A stretch of DNA of 64,000 bases from Taibaiella helva (GTDB lineage: Bacteria; Bacteroidota; Bacteroidia; Chitinophagales; Chitinophagaceae), in contig NZ_QUZZ01000003.1 of NCBI RefSeq assembly GCF_003545695.1, positions 1 through 64,000 on the forward strand, read 5' to 3'. The stretch's first letter is position 1, and the number at the start of each line of letters is the position of its first letter. Below, piece by piece: positions 8,536 through 17,280 of this stretch. The notes under the pieces are model-generated. The model saw nothing but the letters and a program-made list of their open reading frames with translations. It searched no databases and had not been told where the DNA came from. The position numbers and the translations under genes were made by a program.

Positions 8536-9981
8536 TTAGTTACCCAGGCCGGTGATCTTGAACACGAAGTAGATGATGGCGGCCATGAGCGCGCTCACAG
8601 GGATGGTAATGATCCAGGCCCAGAGCAGGTTGATGGTTACGCCCCAGCGTACTGCGGAAAGCCTTTTGGTGGCGCCTACACCGATGATGGAGCCGGTAAT
8701 GGTGTGCGTCGTGCTCACCGGTATCTTCAGCATTTCGGTAATGAACAGGGTAAGCGCACCGGCTGTCTCGGCAGCAACACCTTCAAAGGGCGTTACCTTG
8801 GTGATGCGGGTACCCATAGTCTTGATGATCTTCCAGCCGCCGCTCATGGTACCCAGCGCGATCACGGTATAGCAGGCCAGCGGTACCCACCATTCCATAT
8901 GGTCGAGGTGATACCGGGCGGGATCGAAAGCGATAAGCGCCGCCATAATGATACCCATTACTTTCTGGGAGTCGTTGCCGCCGTGGCCGATGCTGAATGC
9001 CGCGGAAGAAACCAGCTGCATCCGCTTGAACCAGCGCTCGGACTGTGCGTAGTTGAGGTTGCTGAGGAAGAGCGTGAACAGGCTCATTACAGTAAGAATA
9101 AAGCACATCAGCACCCATTTGAAATTCTCTCCATAAAAAATGACGTTCAGAAACCTGGCATCGAAGCGCGGACGGTTAATACCGCTGATGGTCTTTACCT
9201 CATCCTTACGCATCACTTCCAAAGTTACGGGCTGATCGTTCCGGAAGCCGGAAAAGGCTTTGACTACAGCCTCTTTATCGTTTACAGGCGCCTGGTTGAT
9301 CTTAAGGATCACATCCTTATCGCGGAGTCCCATTTTATAGGCATTGGTATTGCTGCCTGCAATGCCTTTGACGGCAGTACCCTGCTCGGTTTTCTCAAAA
9401 CCTTTGATACCGGCTATTTTGGTCGCATCGGTCTCGATCATCTTGGAAAGGAAGACCACTACTCCCAGGATCACCAGGAAAGAAATGATTTTGGGGCCAA
9501 AGCTTTTTCTGAAGGAATTGAGGAACCAGATGGAAATAATAAAGGCGACCAGCATACCGATAACAGGCGCCAGGAAGATAAAGGAAACAATAGTAAGGAT
9601 GGTGGGCGTATCGATAGAGCTAAAGCCGGCATGCGCGATAGCCGCACCCGCAAAGCCGCCGATAAGCGTATGCGAAGAGCTGGACGGAATACCGAACCAC
9701 CAGGTGATCAGGTTCCAGGTAATGGCCGCCACCAGCCCTGCGAGGATCACCGGCAAGGTGATGAACTCCTTATGTACGGTCTTTGCGATCGTATTGGCCA
9801 CGCCATGATCGGTAAAGATGAAGTAGGCGACAAAGTTGAAAAGCGCCGCCCACAGCACCGCCTGGAAGGGCGTCAGCACTTTGGTCGATACTACGGTGGC
9901 GATCGCATTGGCGGCATCGTGGAAGCCATTGATGTAATCAAATACAAGCGCCAGTATGATAATGATGATTAATAAAGTCAT
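8536..9981 (-). CDS. pitA: PiT-family inorganic phosphate transporter with inserted PDZ domain
   Basis: This inner-membrane symporter of 481 residues takes up phosphate. Both family signatures are present: FHDAANAIA (about 20-28) and GHGGNDSQK (332-340). The central loop is abnormal. After a membrane segment at about 164-181 there is a PDZ-like domain (about 198-267, with AYKMGLRDKDVILKINQ), then another membrane segment (about 287-306), and only then the usual second half. The PDZ domain is therefore probably periplasmic. Ordinary PiT proteins have a plain cytosolic loop here. It is co-transcribed with the DUF47 gene upstream (87 bp gap), a pairing commonly seen for low-affinity phosphate uptake. 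Confidence 0.93.
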   Translation of the reverse strand: MTLLIIIIILALVFDYINGFHDAANAIATVVSTKVLTPFQAVLWAALFNFVAYFIFTDHGVANTIAKTVHKEFITLPVILAGLVAAITWNLITWWFGIPSSSSHTLIGGFAGAAIAHAGFSSIDTPTILTIVSFIFLAPVIGMLVAFIISIWFLNSFRKSFGPKIISFLVILGVVVFLSKMIETDATKIAGIKGFEKTEQGTAVKGIAGSNTNAYKMGLRDKDVILKINQAPVNDKEAVVKAFSGFRNDQPVTLEVMRKDEVKTISGINRPRFDARFLNVIFYGENFKWVLMCFILTVMSLFTLFLSNLNYAQSERWFKRMQLVSSAAFSIGHGGNDSQKVMGIIMAALIAFDPARYHLDHMEWWVPLACYTVIALGTMSGGWKIIKTMGTRITKVTPFEGVAAETAGALTLFITEMLKIPVSTTHTITGSIIGVGATKRLSAVRWGVTINLLWAWIITIPVSALMAAIIYFVFKITGLGN

Positions 9982-10068: not shown

Positions 10069-10716
10069 TTAAGCGTATTTGATAATGATGGATTCGATCA
10101 CGTTGGCAGCGTCTTCGCATTTGTCGGTGATGATCTCCATATCCTGGTAGATGTCCTTCAGCTTGACCAGCTCGATGGGATCGGTGCTGGAAGCGAACAT
10201 TTTGATGATCGCATTGTCCAGGAGGTCGTCGGCCTGGTTTTCCAGGCTGTTGATCTGCACACAAGCTTCGGTGATTGCCCGCAGGTTCTTCATGTTGCGC
10301 AGCTCATGCAGGGCTTTGTCCAGCGCGACAATGGCATTTTCGATCACAACGACCATTTCTTTCATGAAGCTGTCGATCTCTTTTACCTGGTAGTTCACCA
10401 TCTTCTTGGAAGAAGCATAAATAAAGTCAGCAACATCGTCGAGGGAAGTGGCGAGGTAGTGAATGTCTTCACGGTCAAACGGCGTGATGAAATTCTGGCC
10501 CAGCTCAACAAATATCTTGTGGGTCAGCTCGTCGTTTTTGTGCTCGGCATCTTCCAGCGCGCGCAGCATCTGGGTCCTCTTGGTCACATCGGTTTGTTCG
10601 ATAGCCGCACGGAAAGCGGCGCCCATCTCTTTCAGGTTGGCTCCTACCTGTTCGAAAATGCTATAGAATACTTTATCCTTGGGGAGAAACAATTTAATGA
10701 AAGAATTCAGACCCAT
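10069..10716 (-). CDS. DUF47 (PhoU-like) phosphate transport regulator
   Basis: This all-helical cytosolic protein of 215 residues is of the DUF47/PhoU-like family, which partners PiT transporters and is thought to control them. Helices rich in Glu, Lys and Asp, with acidic motifs such as DREDIHYLATSLDDVADFI, match the metal-binding helices of PhoU proteins. It is the first gene of a two-gene operon with the PiT transporter. Its own -7 box lies at 10751-10758, facing away from the repeat array that drives the divergent TonB receptor gene. Confidence 0.92.
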   Translation of the reverse strand: MGLNSFIKLFLPKDKVFYSIFEQVGANLKEMGAAFRAAIEQTDVTKRTQMLRALEDAEHKNDELTHKIFVELGQNFITPFDREDIHYLATSLDDVADFIYASSKKMVNYQVKEIDSFMKEMVVVIENAIVALDKALHELRNMKNLRAITEACVQINSLENQADDLLDNAIIKMFASSTDPIELVKLKDIYQDMEIITDKCEDAANVIESIIIKYA

Positions 10717-10750: not shown

Positions 10751-10758
10751 CAAAATTA
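10751..10758 (-). promoter_or_regulatory. -7 promoter box of the DUF47-pit operon
   Basis: The minus strand reads TAATTTTG, an exact match to TAnnTTTG, 34 bp before the DUF47 start codon. Confidence 0.65.
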
Positions 10759-10819: not shown

Positions 10820-10892
10820 TAAGTGATTGGTAATGTTGCGGTAACATTAAGTTTACCTATCCGTAACATTGGCGTAATCCAAGGGTAACATT
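10820..10892 (+). promoter_or_regulatory. Pho-box-like array of seven 7-bp repeats in 11-bp phase
   Basis: Heptamers start at 10820, 10831, 10842, 10853, 10864, 10875 and 10886: TAAGTGA, TAATGTT, TAACATT, TTACCTA, TAACATT, TAATCCA, TAACATT. Each is separated from the next by exactly 4 bp. A 7+4 direct-repeat layout is the architecture bound by PhoB/PhoP response regulators. The last repeat ends 7 bp before the -7 box at 10900, where a -33 element would otherwise sit. That is typical of activator-dependent promoters. The neighbouring PiT/DUF47 genes support a phosphate link. The regulator itself is not in this window. Confidence 0.75.
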
Positions 10893-10899
10893 GGAATTC

Positions 10900-10907
10900 C
10901 AATTTTG
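10900..10907 (+). promoter_or_regulatory. -7 promoter box of the TonB receptor gene
   Basis: CAATTTTG differs from TAnnTTTG only at the first base. It lies 7 bp after the repeat array, the same distance as at 13856. Transcription should start near 10914, which excludes the in-frame ATG at 10891. Confidence 0.6.
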
Positions 10908-10932
10908 CGCACAAATTCTATACTTGATAGTT

Positions 10933-13725
10933 ATGCGTAATTTATTCACGTTATTGCTCTCTTTACTGGTTGCAGGGCAGGTGTTTGCAGGTGGAAAGAT
11001 CCTGGGTACCGTTACCGATGGCGGCTCGTCCGAAACCCTGATCGGTGTATCCGTATCCCTATTCCAGAAGGGAGGTGAAACTCCTATGTCGGGAACCATT
11101 ACCGATATCGACGGTAATTATATTTTTGAGGTAGCCCCCGGCGACTATGAAATCGAAGTACAATATGTAGGTTATCAAACCAAGAGAATAACAGATATCA
11201 ATGTTACTGAAGGCAATACCACCAAAGCTTCCGTAGCCATGAGCGAACCCAAGAACACCCAGCTGGACGAAGTGGTGATCCAGGGTACCGTGAAAAAAGA
11301 AACCGTGAATGCGCTCTACACCATGCAGAAAAATGCAGTGGCTGTATCCGATGGTATCTCTGCCGAGGCCATACGCCGTTCTCCGGACAGGAGCACCGGG
11401 GAAGCGCTGAAGCGTGTGAGCGGTACTACTATCCAGGACAATAAGTTCGTGATCGTACGCGGTCTCAGCGACCGTTACAATACGGCCCTGGTGGACGACG
11501 CCGTGCTGCCCAGCACAGAGCCCAACAGGAAGGCCTTCTCTTTCGACATCATCCCTTCCAGCATGATCGATAATATCATCATCACCAAGGCCGGAACACC
11601 CGATCTGCCCGGCGACTTCGCCGGTGGTGTGATCAATATCCTCTCCAAGGAAGTGCCCGATGACAACTTTACCAATATCTCTATCGGTACAGGCTTCAAC
11701 ACTGCTTCTACTTTCAAGACATTTAAATCGGGATATCGTACCTCTACCGATTTCCTGGGCTTCGACAACGGCGACCGCCAGCTGCCCAAGAGCTTCCCTT
11801 CGCAGAAATCGATAGCCGGTAAGAACCTGACGCCCGAGCAATCGGTATCTTACCTGAAGATGCTGAACAACGACTTCTCTACCAAAGAGCATACAGCGCT
11901 GCCGGCAATGAACCTGCAGGCTTCGCTGGGCCGTGTGTTTAACCTGAAAGGTAATTCCCGTTTCGGCGTTACTGCTGCAGTTACTTATAACCACAGCGAG
12001 AACATCAAGCCCGAGCTGCTGCGCCAGTACGATAACTACGATTACAAAGACAATATCTACAACTATTCTACCAACCTGGGCGCCCTGCTGAATCTGGGCT
12101 ATTATACCGGTAAAAGCAAGATCAACCTGAAGACCTTCTACAACCGTATCTTCGACGACAACTATCTCGAGCGTGAAGGTGTAAACGCGGGTTCTTCCCA
12201 GAACGTTAAGTACTATGCCTACGACCTGATCCAGAAATCCCTGTTCAAAACCACCCTGAGCGGCGACCACCAGATTGGTGGCAAGCAAGGTAAGCTGAAC
12301 TGGTTGCTGTCTTACAACTACATTACCAATAACCAGCCCGATCAGCGTAAAGTAGCCTATACGCAATCCGAAGGTACCACCGAGCCTTTCATGGCGCAGC
12401 TGTACTCCCTGGGTAAGGCCAATAACCGCCTGTTCGGCAGCCTGAACGAAACGGTGCTGAATGGTGGTGTGAATTACGCCATGCCGTTCAAATTTCTGAA
12501 CAAAAGCAGCCTGAAGCTTGGCGCTTTCGCTACTTACCGTCACCGCGATTTTGCCAACCGTTACATTGGCGCCCTGATCAATACACAGCAGCCCAACTAC
12601 CTGGATGTGCTGCAGCGCCCGCTGTCTACGCTGTTTGCCAGCGATGTGGTCTCACAGAACTATTATACCCTGGCCGACCTTACCGGCGATGCGGACCAGT
12701 ACAAAGCTAAAGCGATGACTACCGGCGGTTACCTGATGCTGGACAACAAGATTACCGATAAGTTCCGTATCGTTTGGGGCGCTCGCCTGGAATCTTATCA
12801 CATCGACCTGAGCACACCCGAGAAAAAAGAAGTGGACCAGACCTGGACCGACATCCTTCCCTCGGCTAACCTTACTTATGCGCTCAGCGAAAAGAGCAAC
12901 CTCAGGGCTTCTTACTTCAGAAGCGTAGCCCGCCCCGAGCTGCGTGAAATGGCCAATCTCGGCTATTACGATTATGAGTTGTCGGCCCAGATCACCGGTA
13001 ACTCCGGCCTGAAGCGCAGCCAGATCGACAATGCGGATCTGCGCTACGAATGGTACCCCAGGGCTGGTGAGATCATCTCTGTTTCAGTCTTCTATAAGCA
13101 CTTCAACAATACGCTTGAGAACTTTGTATACGGTGACGGCAGCGCTTACGATATCACCACCAAAAATTACAAGTCTGCGCAGAACATCGGCGCCGAGCTG
13201 GAGATCCGCAAGAAGCTGGACTTTATCGCCGATAAAGCCTTACTGCGTAACCTGAGCTTCTACATGAATCTGGCTTACATCAACTCCAAAGTAAATACCG
13301 ATCCTTACTATGTACGGACCAAACTGGTCGACAGCCGTCCGTTAAGCGGGCAATCGCCTTATGTGGTGAACACCAGCCTCGGCTACACTTCTACCGATGG
13401 TAAGCTGAGCCTGAACCTGCTGTACAATCTCATCGGTCAGCGCCTGTACCTTGTTGGCGGCGGCCGCGTAGGTAACGTGTATGAGTCTCCGCGCAACCTG
13501 CTCGACTTCCAGGCCAGCTATGCTGTAAGCAAGCACAGCGAATTCCGCCTGAACATTAAAGATCTGATCAACAATCCCGTTCGTTTTTACTTTGACCAGG
13601 ATAGCGATGAAAAATTCGGAACCGTGGGTTTTGCTGACGGCAAGATCAATCCCGACAAAGATTGGCTGCTGCAACAATATAAGCCTGGCCGTAGCTTCAG
13701 CCTGACTTACAGCTATAAGTTCTAA
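10933..13725 (+). CDS. TonB-dependent receptor, probably phosphate-starvation controlled
   Basis: This outer-membrane receptor has 930 residues from the ATG at 10933. A signal peptide (MRNLFTLLLSLLVAGQVFA) is followed by a carboxypeptidase-regulatory-like sandwich (GKILGTVTDGG onward, about 20-105), a plug (about 120-240, DEVVIQGTV, NKFVIVRGLSDRYNTALVDD) and a 22-strand barrel ending in YSYKF. The promoter region carries seven Pho-box-like repeats. The next plus-strand gene, a lipoprotein, has the same arrangement, so the pair probably imports a phosphorus source such as an organophosphate. The ATG at 10891 is rejected because it precedes the predicted transcription start. Not a SusC, since it lacks the long SusC-type barrel. 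Confidence 0.9.
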   Translation: MRNLFTLLLSLLVAGQVFAGGKILGTVTDGGSSETLIGVSVSLFQKGGETPMSGTITDIDGNYIFEVAPGDYEIEVQYVGYQTKRITDINVTEGNTTKASVAMSEPKNTQLDEVVIQGTVKKETVNALYTMQKNAVAVSDGISAEAIRRSPDRSTGEALKRVSGTTIQDNKFVIVRGLSDRYNTALVDDAVLPSTEPNRKAFSFDIIPSSMIDNIIITKAGTPDLPGDFAGGVINILSKEVPDDNFTNISIGTGFNTASTFKTFKSGYRTSTDFLGFDNGDRQLPKSFPSQKSIAGKNLTPEQSVSYLKMLNNDFSTKEHTALPAMNLQASLGRVFNLKGNSRFGVTAAVTYNHSENIKPELLRQYDNYDYKDNIYNYSTNLGALLNLGYYTGKSKINLKTFYNRIFDDNYLEREGVNAGSSQNVKYYAYDLIQKSLFKTTLSGDHQIGGKQGKLNWLLSYNYITNNQPDQRKVAYTQSEGTTEPFMAQLYSLGKANNRLFGSLNETVLNGGVNYAMPFKFLNKSSLKLGAFATYRHRDFANRYIGALINTQQPNYLDVLQRPLSTLFASDVVSQNYYTLADLTGDADQYKAKAMTTGGYLMLDNKITDKFRIVWGARLESYHIDLSTPEKKEVDQTWTDILPSANLTYALSEKSNLRASYFRSVARPELREMANLGYYDYELSAQITGNSGLKRSQIDNADLRYEWYPRAGEIISVSVFYKHFNNTLENFVYGDGSAYDITTKNYKSAQNIGAELEIRKKLDFIADKALLRNLSFYMNLAYINSKVNTDPYYVRTKLVDSRPLSGQSPYVVNTSLGYTSTDGKLSLNLLYNLIGQRLYLVGGGRVGNVYESPRNLLDFQASYAVSKHSEFRLNIKDLINNPVRFYFDQDSDEKFGTVGFADGKINPDKDWLLQQYKPGRSFSLTYSYKF

Positions 13726-13750
13726 AATAAAGCAAACAAGCACACAGAGA

Positions 13751-13778
13751 AAGCGGCCCCGGGGAGGGCCGCTTTTTA
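13751..13778 (+). terminator. terminator of the TonB receptor gene
   Basis: A 9-bp stem (AAGCGGCCC 13751-13759 with GGGCCGCTT 13766-13774) runs into a T tract. It separates the receptor gene from the lipoprotein gene, which then has its own repeat-driven promoter. Confidence 0.9.
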
Positions 13779-13808
13779 TATTGCCTTACTGTTAAAGGAT
13801 TTCAAAGT

Positions 13809-13863
13809 TTACAAAGGCATAATGTTGGCGTAACATTCCGGTTACATCGTCCGGATACTTTTG
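13809..13863 (+). promoter_or_regulatory. second Pho-box-like array plus -7 box
   Basis: Four heptamers lie at 13809 (TTACAAA), 13820 (TAATGTT), 13831 (TAACATT) and 13842 (TTACATC), each 11 bp from the next. The last ends at 13848, followed by 7 bp and an exact -7 box TACTTTTG at 13856-13863. Repeat sequence, phase and distance to the -7 box all equal those of the array at 10820-10907, so the two promoters should answer to the same activator. Confidence 0.75.
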
Positions 13864-13895: not shown

Positions 13896-15293
13896 ATGAA
13901 AAAGCTTGTATTGCTTGGCTTTAGTGCGCTGGCGCTGTTTTTCGCTTCCTGCAGCAGCAACGATAATAACCCCGATCCGGGTCCTGATCCTTCCAATGTG
14001 ATCACCATTAGCGGCGACATCACGGGCAACCAGACCTGGACTGCTGACAAGAAATATATTCTCAAAGGCTTCGTATATGTAACCAACGGCGCCAACCTGA
14101 CGATCCAGCCCGGTACGGTTATCATGGGTGATAAAGCGTCTAAAGGTACACTGACCGTAACCCGCGGTGGCAAGATCACTGCCGAAGGTACTGTAGACAA
14201 GCCTATCATCTTTACCTCTGCACAGGAAGCCAACGCCCGTCGCGAAGGCGATTGGGGCGGTTTGATCCTGCTGGGTAAAGCACCCGTCAACCCCAGCGGC
14301 GGCGAAGCTAAGATCGAAGGTGGGCTCGTGCCTACCCAAACCGACAAAGAGAAAGATTATATCTGGTTTGGTGGTACCGATGCCAACGATAACTCCGGTA
14401 CCCTGAAATATGTGCGTATCGAGTTTGCCGGTATTGCTTACTCTCCCGATAACGAGATCAACGGTCTGACTATGGGTGGTGTAGGCGCCGGTACCAAGAT
14501 CAGCTATGTACAGGTTTACCGTTCAGGCGATGACGCTTTCGAGTGGTTCGGCGGTACGGTAAACTGCGATCACCTGGTGGCTTCTTACAGCTGGGACGAC
14601 GACTTCGATACCGACAACGGCTTTTCCGGTAATGTACAGTTCGGTGTTGCCCTGCGTGTAAAAACCGTAGCTGATCAGAGCGGTTCCAACGGCTTCGAAT
14701 CTGACAACGATGCCAACGGTTCTAACAACACTCCCCAGACGAAAGCGGTATTCTCTAACATGACTGTAGTGGGACCGATCCAGGGCAAATCTGCCAGCGG
14801 TATCAACAACAACTTCCAGCATGGTGCACAGATCCGTCGTAACTCTTCTATCTCTATCATGAACTCTATCATTATGGGCTTCCCCCTGGCTGGCCTGTAT
14901 ATCGACGATACCAAAGGTACTTTCACTTCCGCCAACGCTGTTGCCGGTACCCTGAAATTTGCGAACAACATTATCGCCGGCTGCCCTGTTAAGCTGAAAG
15001 CTACCGCTCCTTATGACGCCGCTATCGGTGCATGGGTTGCCGCTCAGAACAACCAGCTGCTGGACAGCACCCAGCAGGTAGGTCTGGCAGATCCCTTCAA
15101 GTTCACGCCTGCCCTGTCTTCCCAGGCTGGTCGTCCCAGCTTCCTGCTGACTGCTACCTCTCCTGCGCTTACAGGTGCGAACTTCACCGGTATGCCTTCC
15201 TTCCAGCAAGTACCTTACATCGGCGCCTTCGACGGTTCTGCTGACTGGACTGCCGGTTGGACCACCTGGGATGCTGAGAAAACTGCTTACTAA
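13896..15293 (+). CDS. outer-surface lipoprotein paired with the TonB receptor
   Basis: The lipobox at ALFFASC, followed by a Ser/Asn/Asp/Pro linker, marks this 465-residue protein as a lipoprotein. The body is rich in Gly, Asn and Thr with beta-helix-like text (GTVIMGDKASKGTLTVTRGG, IIFTSAQEANARREGDWGG, and later FANNIIAGC), as in proteins of the right-handed parallel beta-helix type. Homologs in Bacteroidota are usually annotated only as hypothetical or as multidrug transporter, which the sequence does not support. Its promoter copies that of the receptor gene upstream, so it probably acts with that receptor in capturing a phosphorus compound. Confidence 0.8.
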   Translation: MKKLVLLGFSALALFFASCSSNDNNPDPGPDPSNVITISGDITGNQTWTADKKYILKGFVYVTNGANLTIQPGTVIMGDKASKGTLTVTRGGKITAEGTVDKPIIFTSAQEANARREGDWGGLILLGKAPVNPSGGEAKIEGGLVPTQTDKEKDYIWFGGTDANDNSGTLKYVRIEFAGIAYSPDNEINGLTMGGVGAGTKISYVQVYRSGDDAFEWFGGTVNCDHLVASYSWDDDFDTDNGFSGNVQFGVALRVKTVADQSGSNGFESDNDANGSNNTPQTKAVFSNMTVVGPIQGKSASGINNNFQHGAQIRRNSSISIMNSIIMGFPLAGLYIDDTKGTFTSANAVAGTLKFANNIIAGCPVKLKATAPYDAAIGAWVAAQNNQLLDSTQQVGLADPFKFTPALSSQAGRPSFLLTATSPALTGANFTGMPSFQQVPYIGAFDGSADWTAGWTTWDAEKTAY

Positions 15294-15318
15294 GATTTAG
15301 AACAGATCCTTTATGAGA

Positions 15319-15349
15319 GCCCCCGGAGCAATACTCCGGGGGCTTTTTT
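15319..15349 (+). terminator. terminator of the lipoprotein gene
   Basis: A perfect 10-bp stem (GCCCCCGGAG 15319-15328 with CTCCGGGGGC 15334-15343) is followed by six Ts. Confidence 0.95.
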
Positions 15350-15429
15350 CGTTGTATAAGCGGGGCCTGGTCGCCGATTATTCGTACATTAGCCAATCCA
15401 GGGCCGCGATGATTAAACGGGGCCGCTAT

Positions 15430-17280
15430 ATGAAGACAGGAATTGATTTTAAAAGAACAGGCGCAGCTTTGCTGCTGGCCGGCATATTGCTGGCCGGTAC
15501 GCCGCTCCATGCCCAGCGGCCTCCCGGAAAGGAAATTGCGCTGGCGCGCCAGTTCATGAGCGATAAGGATTATGAGAAGGCCATACCGCTGTTCAAAACG
15601 GTATACGAGCAGGCTCCTTTTGACAAGAGCGTATATGATGAGTACCTCGATGCCTTAATGCTGGCTGCCCGTTATGAGGAAGCCGCTTCCCTGGTCGGCT
15701 ACATGAGCAAGATCCGCCGTGAAGACCCGGTGATGCTGCTTGATATGGGCAGGGTGCTGGATGCATCGGGAAAGAAGAAGAAAGCGGAGGAACAGTACGA
15801 TAAGGCGCTGAGCCAGGTAAGCGGGGAAGATTTCCGCACCAGGCAGTTGGCCGATGCCTTTGCCCGCATGGGAAAGAACGACTATGCCATCAAAGTCTAC
15901 GAGCGGGCGCGTACAATGATCCAGAACCCCTATGTGTATGCCACCGAGCTGGGACTGTTGTACAGCAAGGAAGGCAATACGGAAGAGGCGATCAAGGCGA
16001 TGATGGACCAGTTGGTGGTACAACCCAATGTGCTCGATGATGTCAAAAGCGCCCTGCTGCAAATGGTAGGCGAAGATGAGAAGAAAATGGCCGTATTGCA
16101 AAAGCAGCTCAGCAAGCGTATTGCGCAGCAGCCCGACAATCCCTATTGGGCCGAGCTGATGACCTGGATCTATATACAAAAAGGCGACTTCAACGGCGCC
16201 TATGCCCAGATTGTCACTCTGGATAAAAAGCTGAAGGAAGAGGGTGAACGTGTTGTTGCCTTCTGCAAGACCGCGACTGCTGCCGGCCAATACCCGGTTG
16301 CCCTGGAGGGATTTCGCTATGTCATGGGCAAAGACTCCTCAGCACCTATGTACGAAGAAGCCTGGGACGGGAAAATACAAGTGCTTTTACGGCAGCTTGA
16401 GCAGAAAAGGCCTGTGGACAAGCCATTACTTGTTAGCCTGCAGCAGGAATATAAGACCTTTTTTGACGAATACCCGCAATATGTTACTTCCCCGCTGATG
16501 CGCGACTATGCTAAGGTGGAGGCACGCTATGCCTTGCAGGTGGATACCGCGATCGCGCTGCTGGAACGGGCGATCGCTGCGCCCAATGCACGCAGGGATT
16601 TTATCGGCTATTGTAAGCTCGACCTGGGAGACTATTATTTGCTGAAGGAAAAGGTTTGGGATGCAACCCTGCTCTATTCGCAGGTAGACAAATCCTTTAA
16701 AGAAGATCAGCTGGGCGAAGAAGCCCGGTTCCGCAATGCCAAGCTGGCCTATTACCGCGGCGATTTTAAATGGGCCCAAACGCAGCTCTCTGTGCTGAAA
16801 GCCTCTACCAGCGAGCTGATCGCCAATGATGCGCTTTACCTTTCCGTGCTGATCACTGAGAATATTCCGCCAGACAGCAACCTGACACCTTTACTGCGCT
16901 TTGCAGCTGCTGATCAGCTCCTTTTTCAGAATCGGACCCAGGCTTCGGACCAGTTGCTCGACAGCATTGCAACGGCCTTTCCTGAAACAGCCCTGATGGA
17001 CGACATCTATTTGCTACGCTCACGTATCGCAGAGGAGGAAGGCCGCAATAACGACGCCGTTACCTTCCTGGAAAAAATACTGGAAAAATATGGCGACGAT
17101 GTACTGGGTGATGACGCTGCCTACCGGCTGGCCGTACTTTACGAAGAACGGCTGAAGGATAAAGCAAAAGCGCTGCAGTATTACGAGATCCTCATTACCC
17201 GTTATCCCGGTAGTACCTATATCCAGGCCGCCCGGAGCCGCTTCCAGAAGCTGAAGGCCGGGAAAGAGCCCTCCTCCTGA
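15430..17280 (+). CDS. periplasmic tetratricopeptide-repeat protein
   Basis: From the ATG at 15430 the 616-residue protein opens with a signal peptide cleaved after about residue 29 (GTPLHAQ). The rest is helical TPR text: KDYEKAIPLFKTVYEQAPFD, NDYAIKVYERARTMIQNP, and a C-terminal repeat set ending in a YxxIxxRYPGS motif like that of outer-membrane assembly TPR proteins. It probably scaffolds protein interactions in the envelope. The partner is not visible. An earlier in-frame ATG at 15409 is possible, while the frame from 15313 overlaps the upstream terminator. The DUF3108 gene follows within 40 bp, so the two may be co-transcribed. Confidence 0.85.
   Translation: MKTGIDFKRTGAALLLAGILLAGTPLHAQRPPGKEIALARQFMSDKDYEKAIPLFKTVYEQAPFDKSVYDEYLDALMLAARYEEAASLVGYMSKIRREDPVMLLDMGRVLDASGKKKKAEEQYDKALSQVSGEDFRTRQLADAFARMGKNDYAIKVYERARTMIQNPYVYATELGLLYSKEGNTEEAIKAMMDQLVVQPNVLDDVKSALLQMVGEDEKKMAVLQKQLSKRIAQQPDNPYWAELMTWIYIQKGDFNGAYAQIVTLDKKLKEEGERVVAFCKTATAAGQYPVALEGFRYVMGKDSSAPMYEEAWDGKIQVLLRQLEQKRPVDKPLLVSLQQEYKTFFDEYPQYVTSPLMRDYAKVEARYALQVDTAIALLERAIAAPNARRDFIGYCKLDLGDYYLLKEKVWDATLLYSQVDKSFKEDQLGEEARFRNAKLAYYRGDFKWAQTQLSVLKASTSELIANDALYLSVLITENIPPDSNLTPLLRFAAADQLLFQNRTQASDQLLDSIATAFPETALMDDIYLLRSRIAEEEGRNNDAVTFLEKILEKYGDDVLGDDAAYRLAVLYEERLKDKAKALQYYEILITRYPGSTYIQAARSRFQKLKAGKEPSS

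Follow-up and report, generated by a model that had tools for sequence, protein, structure and literature searches.

Two tandem-repeat arrays in a 64-kb stretch of the Taibaiella helva genome (hereafter the window) are very probably Pho boxes of a Bacteroidota form, that is, predicted PhoB operators of the two genes they precede, which encode a TonB-dependent receptor and a lipoprotein. In both arrays heptamers recur at exact 11-bp steps and stop at the same distance from a -7 box. The -7 box of Bacteroidota is TAnnTTTG, and the -33 element is its upstream partner. The features concerned were:

10820..10892, forward strand: putative Pho-box array 1, made up of seven heptamers (consensus TAAYATT, the distal one weak) that follow one another at exactly 11 bp
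10900..10907, forward strand: CAATTTTG, -7 box for the receptor, separated from the last heptamer by 7 bp and differing from TAnnTTTG at one base
13809..13848, forward strand: putative Pho-box array 2, made up of four heptamers with the same exact 11-bp step
13856..13863, forward strand: TACTTTTG, -7 box for the lipoprotein, likewise separated from the last heptamer by 7 bp

Sequence and uniqueness of the arrays

Array 1 consists of TAAGTGA (10820), TAATGTT (10831), TAACATT (10842) and TTACCTA (10853) in its distal half, followed by TAACATT (10864), TAATCCA (10875) and TAACATT (10886) on the proximal side. Array 2 reads TTACAAA (13809), TAATGTT (13820), TAACATT (13831) and TTACATC (13842). A preliminary description of this DNA had reported seven and four phased heptamers with a 7-bp gap, and reading the sequence at 11-bp steps confirmed this; the arrays end at 10892 and 13848 and the -7 boxes start at 10900 and 13856, leaving exactly 7 bp in both cases. 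Scored against a heptamer profile trained on promoters outside the window, six of the seven copies in array 1 and all four in array 2 were positive, the exception being the distal TAAGTGA at 10820. When both strands of the 64 kb were scanned with this profile, five four-copy registers exceeded the threshold at period 11, all within the two arrays, and none did so at periods 7–10 or 12–15.

For genome-wide ranking, we assembled a 56-column, sequence-only profile (R1) covering four units together with the 7-bp gap and -7 box that follow them. It was built from those 28 of 80 collected promoters that had an anchored score of at least 20 and TTTG at the end; the window was left out of the training set and the two arrays of a close relative (G002) were kept in. 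Over the 4.82-Mb genome (34 contigs, listed as 100% complete), the window's two arrays ranked first, with E values of 3.3e-9 and 1.7e-6, and the next-best place reached 0.008. Some heptamers are degenerate and match poorly, as would be expected of repeats arising by chance in A/T-rich intergenic DNA; yet E values this low, from a profile built without the window's arrays, together with the conservation of the arrays across genera and families (see below), leave chance with a negligible share of the probability.

A strict triple-heptamer pattern recovered both arrays and one weak place in the same genome. A loose version, tried as a means of listing the regulon, was rejected, with 44+32 matches against 35+34 in the control; this is background level, and patterns alone therefore cannot list the regulon.

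Conservation of phasing and spacing in relatives

Matches to the lipoprotein were found in 63 of the 79 genomes searched (same genus, family and order). Forty homologous regions were fetched, two of them (L082, L083) being paralogous loci of the T. helva genome itself; a receptor homologue was present in 36 of the 40 and a divergent DUF47-PiT gene pair in 15. To assess phasing, promoters outside the window were scored at eight periods with a profile that drew solely on the window's copies. The preliminary description had stated that orthologous promoters without the 11-bp phasing would speak against it; what we found was that period 11 came out best for 32 of the 37 receptor promoters and for 25 of the 41 that precede the lipoprotein gene. 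The mean four-copy score at period 11 was 16.9 for receptor and 7.6 for lipoprotein promoters, compared with -0.5 to -3.8 at the other periods. Scores of at least 12 were reached at period 11 by 27 receptor and 16 lipoprotein promoters, and at another period by 0 and 2, respectively. The phased array is thus conserved across other genera and families.

The spacing to the promoter was similarly constrained. Among 80 promoters, the window's two included, a gap of 7 bp to the -7 box was best in 28 and one of 18 bp (7+11) in 24, so that these two gaps accounted for 52 of 80, while any other gap was best in at most three. Pooling 203 units from 43 promoters gave the unit (G/T)TAA(C/T)ATT, with frequencies across the heptamer of T 0.97, A 0.84, A 0.99, C/T 0.94, A 0.71, T 0.54 and T 0.67. 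Four to eight positive-scoring units were counted in 42 of the 48 arrays that passed the four-copy score, a choice that under-counts short arrays.

As a control, we scored 83 regions upstream of other mechanically called open reading frames (ORFs) of at least 200 aa at the same loci; their mean was -4.2 at period 11 versus -3.9 to -6.2 elsewhere, and two of the 83 reached a score of 12. These data bear on the idea that the arrays are a helically phased A/T structure, such as an UP element or a bend, that raises basal promoter strength with no specific regulator. Such a structure would show A/T-rich heptamers recurring once per helical turn, as seen here, but base identity is kept beyond A/T content (see the first four pooled positions), the score is reached by just two of the 83 other upstream regions, and the array-led genes lean to one function (next section). 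We therefore regard a purely structural role as very improbable.

Genes led by the array across genomes

R1 matches at E≤0.05 occurred in 52 of 59 genomes, and 76 matches had E≤1e-3. Receptor-lipoprotein loci, many of them training loci, made up 36 of the 76. For the other 40, many first genes were scanned with Pfam and the rest were judged by the likeness of their first residues; one match lay at a contig end. Phosphate-uptake or phosphoester genes were led by 16 of these 40 matches: four porin-pst operons (one scanned), three PlcP-like metallophosphoesterases (one scanned), two receptor-phytase pairs, and one each of a purple acid phosphatase, a PAP2 protein, PhoX, an operon with a GDPD protein and a phosphodiesterase, a calcineurin-type phosphoesterase (as the second ORF), an enzyme of the EEP family and one resembling PLD. 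Seven further matches, ahead of six genes, led outer-membrane receptors; SusD accompanies one of these, and another lies behind an extracytoplasmic function (ECF) sigma gene. Six more led proteins of secreted type that carry type IX, lamin-tail or Ig-like domains. The array-led gene set is rich in phosphate-acquisition genes.

Two more porin-pst operons had weaker matches (G016, E 0.003; G007, E 0.007), making six seen overall; these operons were noticed through an R1 match close to a PBP_like_2 match and are no unbiased sample. The porin had no Pfam match and is named from its position and by analogy. At locus L257 of genome G017, an R1 match is followed by an ECF sigma gene, an ORF of 346 aa and then a TonB receptor, a composition resembling that of the phosphate-induced sigma and FecR genes of PUSI and PUSIII in Flavobacterium johnsoniae.

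Eight weaker places in the T. helva genome (E 0.008 to 0.4) were also looked at; among them were arrays ahead of a MauG-like protein, two proteins of the purple-acid-phosphatase type, another receptor and two type-IX-tailed proteins. At C21:394445 and 396380 (G000, L155), weak phased arrays stand ahead of a MauG-like di-haem protein and ahead of the metallophosphoesterase next to it, which has a purple-acid-phosphatase N-terminal domain.

Arrays at phoBR and the measured phosphate response in Flavobacterium

In the family that includes Flavobacterium (f25), homologues of the receptor and lipoprotein lay beside phoBR in nine of twelve phoB regions, and eight of these nine held arrays in the gap between phoB and the receptor gene. 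Over the twelve regions, 33 registers passed at period 11 versus two at six other periods together. We scanned the genomes of F. pectinovorum, F. hibernum and F. potami, near relatives that stood in for F. johnsoniae, which the 80 loci at hand did not include. All three had an array ahead of the receptor beside phoB (E 0.02 to 0.12), another ahead of whichever gene lies behind phoR (E values 0.003 to 0.32), and a third ahead of DUF47-PiT genes identified by eye (E 0.001 to 0.13).

The F. johnsoniae genes have been measured. Phosphate depletion raised Fjoh_0545, the receptor gene of the phoBR cluster, by 8.0 log2 fold and Fjoh_0546, which encodes its FII lipoprotein, by 9.9, and the same two genes are reported to be repressed under nitrogen and iron limitation (PMC8115612). 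Also phosphate-induced were PhoB, PhoX, MauG, a phytase with its receptor, PlcP and a glycosyltransferase (PMC8115612). In Bacteroides fragilis, PhoB (BF1576) bound a 512-bp pst promoter fragment in an electrophoretic mobility shift assay, and it influences both pst and BF3715, a putative phosphate/sulphate permease (PMC3547664).

Candidate regulator and competing evidence

Judged by similarity, a cognate PhoB/PhoR pair is present in the genome. The predicted PhoB orthologue (C21:357738-358421) is 59% identical to the regulator adjoining PhoR in G011, the next-best candidates being at 37–38%, and the predicted PhoR orthologue on contig C7 shows 55% identity over nearly its whole length. The recognition-helix stretch RTIDVHIRK is identical in this PhoB, the G011 PhoB and two Flavobacterium-type PhoB proteins. 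The DNA-binding domain matched the E. coli PhoB entry 1gxp with an E value of 2.9e-15, ten other sequences scoring better. Upstream of phoB itself, a three-copy array at p≤0.05 (letter shuffles) was found in 12 of 30 genomes, most clearly at L288, L294, L296 and L297 (0 of 200 shuffles), and the mean score was 5.6 at period 11 versus 0.6 to 3.2 at other periods. In G011 (L234, 8296-8350) a strong array lies convergent with phoR, with no clear target gene.

PhoB is one of ten OmpR/PhoB-type regulators (PF00486) in the genome, and the arrays might instead be bound by another of these in answer to a different signal. Direct repeats of 11 bp are common to the family, ArcA being an example (PMC3798270), and the Riemerella PhoP motif has been labelled ArcA-like (PMC9603813). 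This reading sits poorly with an array found ahead of genes for phytase, PhoX, phosphatases and PlcP-like enzymes as well as pst, an array that also occupies the phoB/receptor gap in Flavobacterium-type genomes and lies upstream of phoB in some others. It also sits poorly with the phosphate induction of the homologous receptor-lipoprotein pair (PMC8115612). We consider another regulator unlikely, and PhoB the probable one.

Several observations weigh against the assignment to PhoB or against its generality. The best period was not 11 in 5 of 37 receptor and 16 of 41 lipoprotein promoters, the receptor/lipoprotein paralogues of the T. helva genome (L082, L083) had no array, and the control was not perfectly flat, with 11 the best period in 21 of 83 regions where about 10 were expected. 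Eleven of the 40 matches outside receptor-lipoprotein loci stood ahead of unrelated or unclear genes (e.g. dnaB, pcrB, mscS), as did two of the eight weaker T. helva places and 13 of 25 matches looked at in the three Flavobacterium genomes, in that no clear target was seen. OprP of F. johnsoniae (Fjoh_0542) was not phosphate-induced (PMC8115612), and its apparent counterpart is the array-led gene behind phoR in the three Flavobacterium genomes. No array at p≤0.05 was found upstream of phoB in 18 of 30 genomes; the phoB promoter of T. helva has two good heptamers and one poor one (three-copy p = 0.010), which is weak and suggestive only. Finally, among 40 hand-picked genomes, R1 matches (E≤0.05) were found in 18 of the 20 that have this PhoB (presence taken as E≤1e-60) versus 6 of the 20 that lack it, or 58 versus 7 matches, an association that is confounded by relatedness and base composition, as 10 of the 20 PhoB genomes and none of the other 20 belong to the same class.

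The preliminary description had proposed a Bacteroidota version of the Pho box, and the conserved phasing, the phosphate-gene regulon and the homology to the Flavobacterium phoBR locus together support it.

Comparison with known systems

The E. coli Pho box is placed just upstream of the -10 element; the window arrays likewise lie just upstream of a -10-type element, where they cover the predicted -33 region. In E. coli the box is made of tandem 11-nt units, each with seven conserved and four less conserved bases, on which PhoB binds head to tail, and the consensus differs between species (PMC4415409). The window arrays share with this box, and with the PhoP boxes of Bacillus and Streptomyces, the seven conserved bases, the 4-base spacer and the 11-bp period, and arrays of this type in other genomes share with Pho boxes a position ahead of pst, phosphatase and other phosphate-acquisition genes (the 16 of 40 matches above). 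Arrays of this type differ from the E. coli box in the heptamer, which is (G/T)TAAYATT and does not fit CTGTCAT, a consensus that is not strictly defining, in often having four to eight units, and in the 7 bp that separate them from a TAnnTTTG -7 box.

Within the phylum, the nearest likeness was the DNA affinity purification sequencing motif of Riemerella anatipestifer PhoP, a PhoB-family regulator, whose most conserved letters are TTTAACA (PMC9603813) and which resembles the motif of ArcA, where direct repeats likewise recur at 11 bp (PMC9603813, PMC3798270). Unlike the element described here, that motif was read as ArcA-like and connected with redox and virulence, with 583 peaks, and the passages on it do not describe 11-bp arrays or promoter spacing (PMC9603813). 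B. fragilis offers a further parallel, namely PhoB acting on a pst promoter in the same phylum; the site is left undefined in the passages, and the words "repeat" and "consensus" are absent from the main text (PMC3547664). A study of marine bacteria that covered Flavobacteria noted putative Pho-box sites in gene clusters containing PlcP, in passages that give neither a matrix nor a Bacteroidota consensus (PMC4796936).

A known locus close to that of the window is PUSIV/phoBR of F. johnsoniae (Fjoh_0541-0549), where a TonB receptor is likewise followed by a lipoprotein of predicted beta-helix (pectate-lyase-like) type (PMC8115612). Unlike that cluster, the T. helva pair is on contig C27 beside PiT-DUF47, with phoB (C21) and phoR (C7) unlinked. 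The terms "motif", "promoter" and "binding site" do not occur in the main text of the F. johnsoniae study (PMC8115612). Among open-licence papers, with subscription papers and preprints outside this scope, we found no description of the present site, and the Riemerella motif came closest. The Pho box is a known kind of element; this sequence, length, spacing rule and phylum were not found described.

Proposed mechanism

During phosphate shortage, the PhoR orthologue would phosphorylate the PhoB orthologue, and PhoB protomers would line up head to tail through their winged-helix domains, each occupying a single 11-bp unit of heptamer, (G/T)TAAYATT, and spacer. By covering the -33 region, the array would replace the -33 element. 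Since the arrays reach to a fixed 7 bp before the TAnnTTTG box, the proximal protomer could contact the Bacteroidota RNA polymerase/sigma, and the TonB receptor and lipoprotein would be switched on, each from its own promoter. These two proteins would most likely bring a phosphorus source through the outer membrane, and phosphate would then enter through the adjacent PiT-DUF47 system. PhoB binding of the arrays, the polymerase contact and the substrate are what we infer here; the long arrays may serve a high induction range or cooperativity. As for the earlier claim of a phosphate-starvation uptake system, the link to phosphate held, the pair being homologous to the phosphate-induced F. johnsoniae pair, while "uptake" goes no further than we infer it.

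No match to PhoU was found in this genome, listed as complete. Its two PBP_like_2 proteins (L162, L163) had no pst neighbours, PstA, PstB and PstC not having been searched genome-wide, and the pstSCAB-phoU set of classical Pst-PhoU sensing was not found. That PiT-DUF47, with DUF47 of the PhoU_div family, might be a candidate for phosphate signalling to PhoR is only an idea. A broader proposal can be put forward tentatively, with more doubt than confidence: a Bacteroidota-specific class of Pho promoter, in which four to eight PhoB protomers on 11-bp TAAYATT units would take the -33 role and touch sigma 7 bp before TAnnTTTG, combined, in lineages lacking Pst-PhoU, to which T. helva seems to belong, with PhoR sensing through the divergent PiT and PhoU-like DUF47, retained next to the receptor-lipoprotein targets, rather than through Pst-PhoU. 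Independently of that proposal, a long, phase-locked site at a fixed promoter distance would make the Pho regulon predictable from sequence, down to those receptors and lipoproteins whose function is not known, and the system would be a clean case of a response regulator meeting the unusual Bacteroidota promoter. Bacteroidota are prominent contributors to phosphorus mobilisation around plants (PMC8115612).

Genes at the locus

The following features surround the two arrays:

8536..9981, reverse strand: phosphate transporter of the PiT family, whose PHO4 domain contains a PDZ-like insert
10069..10716, reverse strand: DUF47/PhoU_div protein, divergent from the receptor
10751..10758, reverse strand: putative -7 box TAATTTTG of the DUF47-PiT operon, found by reading, with no phased array ahead
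10933..13725, forward strand: TonB-dependent receptor, 930 aa, with CarboxypepD_reg, Plug and TonB barrel
13750..13777, forward strand: intrinsic-terminator-like hairpin and T run between receptor and lipoprotein, read directly from the sequence
13896..15293, forward strand: 465-aa lipoprotein for which a parallel beta-helix is predicted; its homologue in Flavobacterium is encoded beside phoBR

The putative terminator at 13750-13777 fits two transcripts, one for the receptor and one for the lipoprotein, each with its own array. The lipoprotein had no match in Pfam or NCBIfam. Its structural model (mean predicted local distance difference test score 90) is mostly beta, and the best solved structures were parallel beta-helix proteins, e.g. 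the pectate lyase Pel9A, at low template-modelling (TM) scores of 0.2–0.4. The predicted fold agrees with the description of the F. johnsoniae FI-FIII lipoproteins, for which weak similarity to pectate lyases or polygalacturonases is reported (PMC8115612).

Domain matches to PHO4 and DUF47/PhoU_div bore out the preliminary identification of the neighbouring divergent operon as PiT and DUF47. An array of the operon's own in the window was unsupported, none appearing at period 11 in the 64-kb profile scan, though all three Flavobacterium genomes scanned have one. In relatives, a three-copy array ahead of DUF47 clearly exceeded shuffles in 3 of 15 (L054, L076, L078). The PDZ-like insert of the transporter comprises residues 210–265, within the PHO4 domain. 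A large tetratricopeptide-repeat protein (15313-17280) follows the lipoprotein and is kept there in the close relatives L044-L046.

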